From Gluconacetobacter tumulisoli (lineage in GTDB: Bacteria; Pseudomonadota; Alphaproteobacteria; Acetobacterales; Acetobacteraceae): a DNA stretch of 64,000 nt. The notes under the pieces were generated by a model. The model was given only the letters and a program-made list of their open reading frames with translations, did not search any database and was not told where the DNA came from. Position numbers and translations under genes: made by a program. The stretch is from contig NZ_JABEQM010000011.1 in the NCBI RefSeq assembly GCF_014174155.1, positions 62,001-126,000 on the forward strand. Reading direction: 5' to 3'. This document shows positions 2,728 through 7,603 of this stretch, piece after piece (within the stretch, counting starts at the first letter, position 1; each line of letters starts with the position of its first letter).

Positions 2728-2982
2728 TCAGCTAATCACCACCTGGTAGACCGGCGCCGGGCCACCCTCGATCTCAGTCACCTGCTTTGCCTTGCCATAG
2801 GCGCGGTCGAGGATCTCCTTACCCGCCGCCACCTGCACAGCATGCGACTCCCCGTTCAGAGCCAACCATGCCAGGCGCTCAAGCACCTCGGGCCCATATT
2901 TTCCCGCCATGGCCCGCACATCGGCCGTTACCTTGTTCGGGACTCCCTTCGGCCGCCCGCCGGTCTTGCGTCCTTCAGCCAT
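2728..2982 (-). CDS. Small basic protein with a GGRPKG motif, phage-related type
   Basis: 84 aa, starting MAEGRKTGGRPKGVPNKVT. The GRPKGxPNK opening is typical of small phage- and plasmid-borne proteins, some linked to small terminase subunits, but the sequence is too short to assign that function. The middle is a helix with an acidic/basic mix and the C-terminus is PAPVYQVVIS. It faces the hicAB pair convergently across about 60 bases. Its presence fits the mobile origin of the region; the role is unknown. Confidence 0.55.
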   Translation of the reverse strand: MAEGRKTGGRPKGVPNKVTADVRAMAGKYGPEVLERLAWLALNGESHAVQVAAGKEILDRAYGKAKQVTEIEGGPAPVYQVVIS

Positions 2983-4787: not shown

Positions 4788-5234
4788 ATGGGAATTCCAA
4801 GCGACCCGCTCTTGGACATCATGAGGCGGTCCCTGATCAACCTCGATTTCATCGAGGCCAACTACCAGAACCATGGCCTCTACGAGGTCGCCCAGTTGGT
4901 TAATACCTTCTTGGGCGCTTTTATCCATCCCTTCGAGAAATCAGCCAAAGGGAAGGAATTCATCAGATATTTCAGAGAAAGGCCACCGCCTGTCCCATTT
5001 GAGACGAAGACTATTGGAAATCTCAATTATTTGGAATTTATCTATTTCGTGAGGCACGCATTGGCTCACGGCGACCTGCATTACAACGCAAATAAGATCA
5101 AACAAATTGAGTCAATCACGCTTTGGAACACCAAATATAAGGAAAATCCAGTCAGGATTACCCTATCCATACGGGATATGAAGGTGCTACTTCTTGATTT
5201 TAAAAACGGTATTGAGGAAATGTTTGAAATTTAA
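4788..5234 (+). CDS. Putative HEPN-domain protein
   Basis: 148 aa, predicted mostly helical. Residues around 95-103 read YFVRHALAHGD, which contains the R-x4-H motif (RHALAH) typical of HEPN nucleases, placed as usual near the start of a late helix. The preceding LNYLEFIYF and following helices suit a compact four-helix HEPN fold. HEPN proteins are frequent RNases in toxin-antitoxin and anti-phage systems, and many are plasmid- or island-borne. No nucleotidyltransferase antitoxin lies beside it. Its 3' end overlaps the opposite-strand gene at 5187 by 48 bases. Confidence 0.6.
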   Translation: MGIPSDPLLDIMRRSLINLDFIEANYQNHGLYEVAQLVNTFLGAFIHPFEKSAKGKEFIRYFRERPPPVPFETKTIGNLNYLEFIYFVRHALAHGDLHYNANKIKQIESITLWNTKYKENPVRITLSIRDMKVLLLDFKNGIEEMFEI

Positions 5235-6251: not shown

Positions 6252-6557
6252 TTATATCTCCTCTATTCCCAAAAAATCCTCAGAAACGTCATCTATTTTG
6301 GTTCCATCTTCCAAAAAAAGTACATAAACTTCGACTTCCGATATGAAATCATATCTACTTTTTTGAACTAATATTTTACTCTGATCATTTCCCAGCGAAT
6401 CAGAAAACAAGAAAACGTCTCCTATATTCCCTTGAGCAATAGCATCATCCTCTGGGGTGGACGACAACCAAACTATCGCTGGAGCGTCGAGCAAAATGCT
6501 TGGAATTTTATCAAATACATATTTGCGGCCGGAGCGAGCTTGGTAAGACTTAGTCAT
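6252..6557 (-). CDS. Small acidic protein of unknown function (101 aa)
   Basis: 101 aa, acidic in its second half (EDGTKIDDVSEDFLGIEEI). It has alternating hydrophobic strands (APAIVWLS, GDVFLFSD, EVEVYVLFL), suggesting a small beta-rich domain. AGAGGAGGATC precedes the ATG with tight spacing, matching the ribosome site of the 71-aa basic protein that it meets tail to tail. Opposite charge and a shared ribosome site invite the idea of a pair, but this is inference only. Confidence 0.5.
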   Translation of the reverse strand: MTKSYQARSGRKYVFDKIPSILLDAPAIVWLSSTPEDDAIAQGNIGDVFLFSDSLGNDQSKILVQKSRYDFISEVEVYVLFLEDGTKIDDVSEDFLGIEEI

Positions 6558-6661
6558 TTGATCCTCCTCTTTTTATTTTTAAACATAGAATCATCCATTT
6601 TAAAAGAAAGATTATCGAGACTTGCCGAAAATCCCGTTTTCCCATATTCTGTAGGTGGCGT

Positions 6662-6817
6662 GTCGTAGCGCCTTTTCACACGAGGTCGCCCCTATGTCGG
6701 GTGGCCTGCCTAATGCAACACCCGGCTTTCGAGCCAAGGCGGTGAATGGGGGCACTCATTCTTCGTCCAAGGGAAATAAGCAGGGCGTGCCTATACCTCG
6801 TGTGAACACGCTACGAC
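6662..6817 (+). ncRNA. Candidate structured RNA with a long closing stem
   Basis: A 156-base segment, much GC-richer than its surroundings, folds back on itself. The closing stem pairs 6662-6670 with 6809-6817 (9 bp) and, after a small asymmetric loop, 6676-6685 with 6796-6805 (10 bp). Inside are 6688-6692/6749-6753, a hairpin 6698-6703/6719-6724, and GGCT-TTCG-AGCC at 6724-6735 with a UUCG tetraloop. It lies just upstream of a hairpin-masked ribosome site and two tiny ORFs and may be a cis-regulatory leader or a separate RNA. No reverse transcriptase or tnpB gene is near. It resembles no RNA family I can name. Confidence 0.5.
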
Positions 6818-6822
6818 CCGCC

Positions 6823-6840
6823 CGACGCCAGGAGGCGTCG
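6823..6840 (+). promoter_or_regulatory. Hairpin sequestering the ribosome site of the leader ORF
   Basis: CGACGCC (6823-6829), loop AGGA (6830-6833) and GGCGTCG (6834-6840) form a perfect 7-bp stem that ends exactly at the ATG at 6841. The Shine-Dalgarno sequence AGGAGG (6830-6835) lies in the loop and the 3' arm, so the closed stem would hamper initiation. This suits a switch controlled by temperature, protein or upstream RNA. The ligand is unknown. Confidence 0.6.
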
Positions 6841-6891
6841 ATGGGAAACTATGCTCGTCGTAGGGCACAATACGGGGTTCAACTACTGTGA
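6841..6891 (+). CDS. 16-aa leader peptide
   Basis: ATG at 6841 opens MGNYARRRAQYGVQLL and stops at 6889-6891. The AGGAGG ribosome site is well placed but held in a hairpin. The stop overlaps the GTG start of the next ORF (GTGA), so ribosomes finishing this peptide could restart on the 48-aa protein. The triple arginine may matter for stalling. Also possible is that this is the tail of a longer frame from 6655, which would run through the structured segment; I think that less likely. Confidence 0.42.
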   Translation: MGNYARRRAQYGVQLL

Positions 6892-7034
6892 AGACTTATT
6901 CGGCAAAGATTGTTTTGAAAAATGGCAATGTTCAAGAAGTCCGCGTACAGGCTGACAATTCTCTGAACGCCAAGTCTCTCATAGACATGCAGTATGGCAA
7001 CCCGCAATATCTTTATCTTCCTCGCCTAGCCTGA
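6888..7034 (+). CDS. 48-aa protein of unknown function
   Basis: A GTG start overlaps the leader stop. The product opens VKTYSAKIVLKNGNVQEVRV and continues QADNSLNAKSLIDMQYG before ending LPRLA. The pattern of a beta hairpin followed by an amphipathic helix looks like a real small domain, not noise. It is followed six bases later by a strong hairpin, so transcription of a small unit with the upstream RNA segment and leader appears to end here. No characterised family is recognised. Expression probably depends on translational coupling, since no independent Shine-Dalgarno sequence is visible. Confidence 0.55.
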   Translation: MKTYSAKIVLKNGNVQEVRVQADNSLNAKSLIDMQYGNPQYLYLPRLA

Positions 7035-7039
7035 CAATA

Positions 7040-7061
7040 GACGGGCATAAATATGCCCGTC
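7040..7061 (+). terminator. Rho-independent-like terminator after the small unit
   Basis: A perfect 9-bp stem GACGGGCAT-AAAT-ATGCCCGTC followed by the T-rich TCATTTATT. It closes the small transcription unit carrying the candidate RNA, the leader and the 48-aa ORF. Confidence 0.7.
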
Positions 7062-7108
7062 TCATTTATTATAAATTACACGATGGAATGATTGTGCGGG
7101 AGTAGGGA

Positions 7109-7603
7109 ATGGCGAGCGTTAAAGAAACTCTTCAAGATTTATATAAACGTGCTGTTGAAGAGAGCTTGGGAGCCGTTGCAAAAATTGACGAATACGGGGA
7201 CATTGAATTTCGTATTTTGAGGTACGGTAATTTTGAAATCTCTATTCTTGAGGATGACCCAGAGTATTTTAGGATTTTATATGGGATTGGAAACCCAGAG
7301 GACTGCGAGTTGTCTGAGTATGACTTCCTTAAAATTGCAAATGATGCAAACAAGACGAAAAAAGCTATAAAAGTAAGGTGCTCAGAATACAAATCTACAA
7401 AAAATAAATATTTAATCGTATCTATTGAATCGTTTATCGCTGCACCAAACAAAATTCCCGACGAAAATTTGGTAAAATCGATAATTGAACGCTATATGTC
7501 AGCCCTTCAATTTGCTATCGACAAAATAAGCGAAAGCCTTTTTGAAGAAGACAAGAAAATAAAGGAAAATAAGGGGCCAAAAATGCTCTCTGGTCCTCGG
7601 TGA
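7109..7603 (+). CDS. Unknown alpha/beta cargo protein (164 aa)
   Basis: 164 aa, soluble, with charged helices at both ends and a central strand-rich part (IEFRILRYGNFEISIL, YFRILYGIG). The general pattern of helix, several strands and long C-terminal helix is reminiscent of small secretion-chaperone-like or YbjN-like folds, but I see no diagnostic motif. AT-rich like its neighbours. It follows the terminator at 7040-7061, so it probably has its own promoter, and 77 bases separate it from the next small gene. Function unknown. Confidence 0.5.
   Translation: MASVKETLQDLYKRAVEESLGAVAKIDEYGDIEFRILRYGNFEISILEDDPEYFRILYGIGNPEDCELSEYDFLKIANDANKTKKAIKVRCSEYKSTKNKYLIVSIESFIAAPNKIPDENLVKSIIERYMSALQFAIDKISESLFEEDKKIKENKGPKMLSGPR

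Follow-up and report, generated by a model that had tools for sequence, protein, structure and literature searches.

The locus at positions 6643–7062 of a 64,000-nucleotide stretch of Gluconacetobacter tumulisoli DNA (the window, which belongs to a 3.96-Mb genome) raises the question of what a strongly folded RNA segment does in front of a very short reading frame and a gene for a 48-aa protein. An earlier note on this DNA had suggested a regulated small-protein module. That idea is partly supported, with one essential part missed: antisense pairing by an arm of the RNA is the most likely means of regulation.

We began with the parts of the unit, all of which lie on the plus strand. The computed fold of 6650–6845 reached −96.7 kcal/mol, compared to −73.0 (sd 4.5) for dinucleotide shuffles, none of 200 being as good (z −5.2), and the folded segment described earlier is thus borne out. 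Its long stem, PA, consists of 9 bp (6662–6670/6809–6817) and 11 bp (6675–6685/6796–6806), the latter previously counted as 10. A UUCG hairpin (GGCU-UUCG-AGCC, 6724–6735) is present in the sequence, as claimed, but the minimum-energy fold pairs this stretch otherwise and relatives keep it poorly, with only 73.7% of cells paired over 29 of them; a simple pattern for a GNRA- or UUCG-capped hairpin was found at this place in 42 of 96 compact RNAs. Downstream, the computed fold contains the 7-bp stem that holds AGGAGG and ends at ATG 6841 (hairpin 6823–6840). The TGA of the 16-codon leader ORF (6841–6891) overlaps the GTG at 6888 of the 48-aa ORF (6888–7034), and the sole Shine-Dalgarno-like element for this GTG is a weak GGGG at a distance of 10 nt. 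The proposed terminator corresponds to a terminator-like hairpin of 10 bp at 7039–7062; the hairpin scan gave three such sites against a shuffle mean of 1.1. The surroundings are AT-rich, as had been stated, with a G+C content of 0.38–0.42 over about 4–8 kb of the window, and the unit stands there among ORFs that read as transposases and integrases.

Two further features of the window were observed. With 23.3 bits (E 5.6e-05), a 148-aa ORF at 4788–5234 (+) matches Pfam HEPN pEK499_p136 below the cut-off of 26.6, and its product is possibly a HEPN-domain protein of the island. A long hexamer-repeat run at 1558–1995, giving AKAKAK, QGQGQG or ALALAL depending on the frame, lies within an ORF whose end reads as resolvase-like.

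We then compared the RNA with known families. At curated thresholds, Rfam found only two tRNAs in the whole window. At lax thresholds, sRNA-Xcc1 (RF02221) matched 6696–6834 with 32.1 bits (E 0.00053–0.0012; cut-off 53 bits); nothing else rose above noise, and a riboswitch or another Rfam class was rejected. The earlier note, which knew of no match to a retron, a tnpB RNA or a riboswitch that it could name, had passed over this relative. The alignment spans the full model (positions 1–87), and closing stem, P2 motif (AAUACAA/GGGAAUA), arm position and second hairpin all agree; the window RNA differs in its score well under the cut-off, in a long insertion and in the upstream strand of PA, which falls outside the Rfam model. 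Judged by its sequence, it is a divergent relative of sRNA-Xcc1. The matched segment, the predicted mature antisense RNA, opens with the 5′ strand of an acceptor-like stem, PB (6696–6704, in the place of P1 in C4), which pairs with 6818–6826. The P2 domain (6705–6784; CCTGC/GCAGG plus CCC/GGG) follows, carrying an extension at 6724–6766 in Acetobacteraceae copies and a short hairpin in compact relatives. Hairpin P5 (6785–6811) pairs 6785–6789 with 6807–6811, and the antisense arm (6795–6817) has its b′ segment in the P5 loop and its a′ segment (CTACGAC) adjoining the PB 3′ strand.

RF02221, which belongs to no clan in the Rfam table, is common in Pseudomonadota: 57 of 398 genomes matched at E ≤0.001 (39 over the cut-off), as did 28 of 147 genomes of relatives at E ≤0.1 (2 over the cut-off), while none of 14 control genomes matched in either search. 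RNAs similar to that of the window also occurred on 12 plasmids, 11 from Komagataeibacter and one from Gluconacetobacter, where the match sites carry no annotation. For family-wide analysis, 51 of 57 match rows from the relatives and 70 of about 100 from Pseudomonadota gave 121 copies with surroundings; one doubtful match (L032) was excluded and five copies (L128–L131, L133) joined later, giving 125 loci, and L119, with a flank missing, was left out of the swap test described below.

Published accounts treat sRNA-Xcc1 of Xanthomonas as a trans-acting sRNA linked to virulence, and that of Xylella as a vesicle RNA (PMC12444791, PMC12189769). RNA sequencing of Escherichia coli EDL933 lists an 89-nt minus-strand sRNA-Xcc1 at coordinate 1392052 among ncRNAs of low translation, with two values, 40293 apparently standing for reads and 0.02 for ribosome coverage (PMC5331693). 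The EDL933 copy in our analysis lies at 1394619–1394707, the coordinates presumably differing through use of another assembly, and the two are probably the same because length and strand agree. Two RNA copies stand 416–418 nt apart in two species (L021, L076; genomes G003, G005), which recalls the clustering of the Xylella sXF1-5 copies at about 381–386 nt (PMC12189769).

The clearest clue to function came from the arm, whose complementarity to two other places can be read in the sequence itself. In the window, 6795–6817 is complementary both to 6662–6686, upstream of the matched RNA, and to 6857–6878, downstream of it. The upstream copy carries GTCGTAG (6662–6668) and CACGAGGT (6679–6686) and would pair with the arm in the precursor, as stem PA. 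The predicted target, with GTCGTAG and ACGGGGT on either side of ggcacaat, lies within the leader ORF, 9 nt 5′ of GTG 6888. The target matches the arm imperfectly; its bipartite score is 12, a value reached by 2.3% of swapped pairs, and the computed arm–target duplex has −24.1 kcal/mol, compared to −11.2 (sd 3.0) for 1000 shuffled targets, of which 0.3% were as good. The motif GTCGTAG-N(4-14)-CGRGGT has four matches in the 3.96-Mb genome, one each at the upstream copy, at the arm (on the minus strand) and at the target, and a fourth elsewhere. As the motif was written from the locus, three of these arise by construction and the informative part is its rarity elsewhere; the reversed pattern has 23 matches in the same genome. 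Just 5′ of the upstream copy, a GTGCTATnnT-like sequence recurs in Acetobacteraceae (e.g., L077, L078, L080); it looks like an extended −10 promoter, with CATATTCT (6643–6650) as its counterpart in the window.

The same relation was found in other family members, where the segment just 5′ of the closing-stem 3′ strand is often complementary to one place upstream of the Rfam model and to another in the start region of the gene that follows. At L057, for example, the upstream copy is TTAAACACACCCTATCAGCGG and the downstream one TTTAAACAACCCTATCAGTGG, followed by a Shine-Dalgarno sequence and ATG. To quantify this, each arm was scored against its own downstream region and against swapped ones. 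Across 120 loci, the cognate mean was 9.80, while permuted pairs gave 7.58 (sd 0.19; best of 5000, 8.25), and 40 of the 120 scored at least 12, compared to 2.3% of swapped pairs. With 80 nonredundant loci (arms <75% alike), the mean was 10.28 versus 7.64 (sd 0.23; best of 10,000 permutations, 8.50), with 31 at 12 or more versus 2.4% of swapped pairs. No signal was detected for these 80 loci in three windows 150–550 nt downstream (means 7.2–7.8) or in a same-sense control (mean 7.45). The upstream match was stronger than the downstream one, with a mean of 12.56 compared to 7.41 (sd 0.24) for swapped pairs. This bipartite exact-match score was picked after viewing the sequences and after two noisier measures. 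By whole-arm duplex energy, the cognate was best in only 4 of 120 rows (median rank 33), and by gapped local alignment, 6 of 120 lay beyond the 99th percentile of the swapped distribution. Only 55 of 125 loci had a target score of at least 11 (6.9% of swapped pairs did), and the upstream score was below 11 in 31 of the 125.

Close relatives of the window locus gave a finer view. Three species share the RNA, the target and the 48-aa ORF, and in these, arm and target change together, the target reading GTCGTAG in the window and in Acetobacter sp. UBA5411 and TTGGCAG in G. aggeris. In UBA5411, the target directly covers the Shine-Dalgarno sequence of the homologous ORF (GCGAGGCATAGTTATG). In genome G004, 131 nt of the RNA (6696–6826) are identical and the target is kept, with a different ORF downstream.

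An RNA of this family might instead work mainly in trans on distant mRNAs, its neighboring gene being incidental. Such is the published view of sRNA-Xcc1, as given by the title of a 2011 paper cited in PMC12444791, and target predictions in PMC2996969 and PMC12189769 point the same way; in addition, 20 of 27 scored Acetobacteraceae copies have a target score below 11 within 100 nt downstream, 18 of these 20 keeping an upstream copy (score at least 12). We nevertheless consider this reading unlikely, since the downstream matches of the 80 nonredundant loci lie far above permutation and are gone beyond 150 nt, and since the single further match of the strict motif in the window genome stands on another contig with no such RNA nearby. 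In Acetobacteraceae copies without a near target, an ORF of about 75 aa was seen to recur (L021, L023, L028, L030, L031, L077, L084, L086), mostly starting 66–91 nt 3′ of the RNA, with such stretches as SASDMADALVRxCGW and MSAHDVAACLIRGFG, followed by CxE and FW.

Pairing with the adjoining gene recalls C4, the antisense RNA of phages P1 and P7 (Rfam RF01695; c4-a1b1, RF03163; clan CL00128), which we compared using the P1 record annotation, the Rfam alignment and a reading of the sequence. The P1 record has the order a1, b1, C4, a2, b2, icd, the final bases of icd containing the start of ant1, and C4 itself comprises an outer stem, a tetraloop hairpin, a hairpin with b′ in its loop, a′, the outer strand and RCC. 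In the window, too, a1-b1, RNA, a2-b2 and start codon follow one another in this order. In both RNAs, b′ lies in a hairpin loop and a′ just before the outer 3′ strand, and both have the outer stem, the inner capped hairpin and the RCC end. Site lengths are 7 and 8 nt in P1 and 7 and about 8 nt in the window, and the start codon follows b2 by 10 nt in P1 and by 9 in the window; the 48-aa gene thus occupies the place of icd. In C4, b′ covers the ribosome site (PMC5320573), and in the window, complementarity likewise links the arms with an upstream copy and with a place at the ribosome site of the gene that follows. This two-site complementarity holds family-wide, with many copies lacking one site or the other.

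There are also clear differences. Unlike in P1, the leader ORF of the window starts 5′ of the target; the gap between the RNA and a2 exceeds 20 nt, compared to 4 nt in P1, and that between a2 and b2 is 8 nt, compared to 22. The AAUACAA/GGGAAUA internal loop in P2 belongs to the sRNA-Xcc1 family, and the window form adds an extra domain. Moreover, C4 targets an antirepressor operon, whereas the window has a 48-aa gene with an overlapping small ORF and no antirepressor after it. Models of the C4 clan gave no match in 6500–7150 at E ≤10, C4 models found nothing where RF02221 matches in 20 loci (E ≤0.05), and RF02221 gave no match on P1 C4 at E ≤10. Since the two sets of models do not recognize each other, the likeness is one of plan, and we call the unit C4-like, not C4.

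The 3′ end of the RNA would extend this likeness to maturation. For C4, RNase P is described as the maturing enzyme, acting at the 5′ end of the outer stem (PMC5320573), and RCCA as a determinant of cleavage by this enzyme (PMC12710915). In the window, the PB 3′ strand is followed by GCCA (6818–6830). Across the family, RCCA stands directly 3′ of the closing stem in 50 of 121 loci, compared to 1.3% in nearby sequence, and NCC in 76 of 121, compared to 7.7%, although these counts are not independent because the copies are related; a U precedes the closing stem in 69% of copies. A stem followed by RCCA fits maturation by RNase P as in C4, and the RCCA/U pattern would place the cut just before 6696. 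The ends of sRNA-Xcc1 have been mapped to give an 88-nt RNA (PMC2996969), which likewise fits a cut at the closing stem, its mapped end probably being model position 1, to judge by the length of the RNA.

The earlier note had held that covarying stems would support the unit, and the stems do covary. Among 29 Acetobacteraceae sequences, all five pairs of P5 were changed on both sides with 99.3% of cells paired, as were seven of the nine pairs of outer PA (93.9% paired) and 5 of the 10 pairs of the helix 6739–6748/6757–6766 (94.4% paired). PB was 100% paired in these sequences, with seven of its nine pairs invariant, and 98.5% paired in 125 loci whose alignments were fitted by the Rfam model. 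Inner PA was just 61.0% paired, which may partly reflect misalignment. When PA and PB together were compared with 500 shuffles, the count of pairs changed on both sides was reached by 26 and the pair-type count by 134; the remaining three measures were reached by none. P5 and PA share the arm and are mutually exclusive, which gives the RNA two states, held in the presence of the upstream copy and free in its absence.

We propose the following mechanism. Upstream copy, RNA, leader, 48-aa gene and terminator would be transcribed as one RNA, in which the arm, as long as the upstream copy is attached, would be held in stem PA. RNase P, as we infer, would cut 5′ of PB and release an RNA of about 130–140 nt whose a′ and b′ segments would then be single-stranded. 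These could pair with the second target copy at 6857–6878 and mask the weak ribosome site in front of the 48-aa gene, and would hold down translation of this gene, which overlaps the leader and may be translationally coupled to it. A cell that already contains the RNA would keep the gene silent, and brief expression could occur in a cell without it, repression being the presumed sign of the control and timing its presumed use. On this view, the folded RNA appears to act as a repressor, pairing on a C4-like plan with the region where the adjoining small gene starts; we regard it as likely that the unit is a C4-like antisense module, and many members of the sRNA-Xcc1 family seem to follow the same plan.

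The leader and the AGGAGG hairpin allow another reading, in which the segment is a cis-acting leader, whether riboswitch, RNA thermometer or leader-peptide attenuator, with the hairpin masking the start and the 16-aa peptide sensing a signal. The fold, the hairpin and the TGA/GTG overlap are all real, and by eye, a terminator-like hairpin and a T run stand directly 3′ of the RNA, before the next ribosome site, in three distant Alphaproteobacteria (L010, L017, L034). However, the hairpin is broken in an Acetobacter homologue (L133) and absent in L002 and L030, so that a hairpin-masked ribosome site, as first described, holds for the window and is not conserved. The same is true of the leader peptide: the 16-codon ORF is there, yet G004 has it out of frame, in UBA5411 it runs in frame into the 48-aa ORF, and in G. 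aggeris it reads GTG GCG TAG. Several relatives have a start with a Shine-Dalgarno sequence at this place and a different peptide. A cis-acting leader also leaves unexplained why the arm tracks both the upstream and the downstream copy, and we judge it quite improbable.

Under the antisense reading, the gene to be silenced is the 48-aa ORF, which is coding by its codon-position pattern. Its structure was predicted as beta-beta-alpha-beta (pLDDT 96.0, from a four-row alignment). The best match of this model among solved structures was T7 Gp2, an RNA polymerase inhibitor (4lk0_M; probability 0.99, TM 0.74/0.71), with a weak E-value of 0.35 and 20% identity, and many unnamed phage proteins of similar size also match the predicted fold. 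A homologue matched the PHROG "RNA polymerase inhibitor" at E 0.23, and the 48-aa protein itself had no PHROG match below E 0.088. A phage or virus origin was rejected, with no phage relatives at E ≤1 and none of 32 candidate viral-contig stretches confirmed. Searches for homologues hit 2 of 147 genomes of relatives (P0001) and 2 of 385 genomes of the class (A4), the window genome included in each. Conservation of the ORF together with the fold, which the earlier note had expected, holds in part. The two occur together in two other species, and the RNA accompanies three of the six homologues known here (the window, L132, L133); the other three (L001, L134, L136) have no Rfam match to the RNA, and the identical RNA of G004 precedes another ORF.

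Genes downstream of family members were then surveyed, a script having picked 118 ORFs, of which 89 were scanned. Pfam (E ≤0.001) assigned 10 to Rha, 6 to Bro-N, 6 to SymE and 1 each to P22_AR_N, KilA-N and ANT, leaving many unknowns, and NCBIfam placed seven more in the XAC0095 family. Among the 18 loci with an antirepressor-type Pfam domain (Rha, Bro-N, KilA-N, P22_AR_N, ANT; E ≤0.001), 13 had a target score of at least 11, including all 11 genes above Pfam's own cut-off; this set replaced a first, hand-picked 18, of which 17 had reached 11. The RNA stands directly before ant in phages Aaphi23 and Rac-SA53, before a KilA-N gene in Acinetobacter phage 4316 and 40 nt before "phage antirepressor Ant" in E. 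coli EDL933, and all four of these copies score 11–13; the annotated ant starts 33–40 nt 3′ of the RNA in Aaphi23, Rac-SA53 and EDL933. At three loci (L041, L050, L052), the arm match precedes a short ORF ahead of the Bro-N gene, not the Bro-N start, which recalls icd before ant in P1. At L046, a sub-threshold c4-2 RNA (2890–2958, minus strand; 34.8 bits, cut-off 41) was seen about 1.3 kb from an sRNA-Xcc1 copy that precedes a P22_AR_N gene, so that both RNA types occur side by side.

The six neighbors that match Pfam SymE_toxin, four with a target score of at least 11, invite comparison with SymE/SymR, in which an antisense RNA also holds down a small gene; sRNA-Xcc1-type RNA, in contrast, is encoded upstream and in the same direction as the gene. 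This layout at symE has been noted and a divergent regulatory mechanism suggested (PMC12444791). According to the same source, no integron cassette is more widespread in Xanthomonas than the one with symE and sRNA-Xcc1, which is present in 13 species.

That the locus works at the DNA level, as a repeated site for recombination or replication at which inverted and direct copies create complementarity without RNA function, is highly improbable: several genomes have more than one copy, the closely spaced pairs in two genomes among them, and sRNA-Xcc1 sits in Xanthomonas integron cassettes (PMC12444791), but the matches lie near gene starts with none further downstream, G-U pairs and the RCCA end fit an RNA, and sRNA-Xcc1 has been detected on Northern blots (PMC2996969). 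An integron attC reading of the stem was rejected by eye, there being no core-site pattern.

In the mainly open-access literature searched, we found no link between sRNA-Xcc1 and C4-type repression of a neighbor, and PMC12189769 gives sRNA-Xcc1 and C4 as separate annotations. A tentative wider reading is that the two are branches of one kind of plug-in antisense repressor, matured by RNase P, which would silence dangerous mobile-DNA cargo (antirepressors, SymE toxins, Gp2-like polymerase inhibitors) in resident hosts and leave it active on entry. On this reading, the arm and its two copies would evolve together, so that an identical RNA can precede a new gene, as in G004. If sRNA-Xcc1 is indeed a C4-type repressor of its own neighbor, its target could be read from the sequence, control of symE in the Xanthomonas cassette would be directly testable and the C4 plan would extend from phage antirepressors to small cargo genes.
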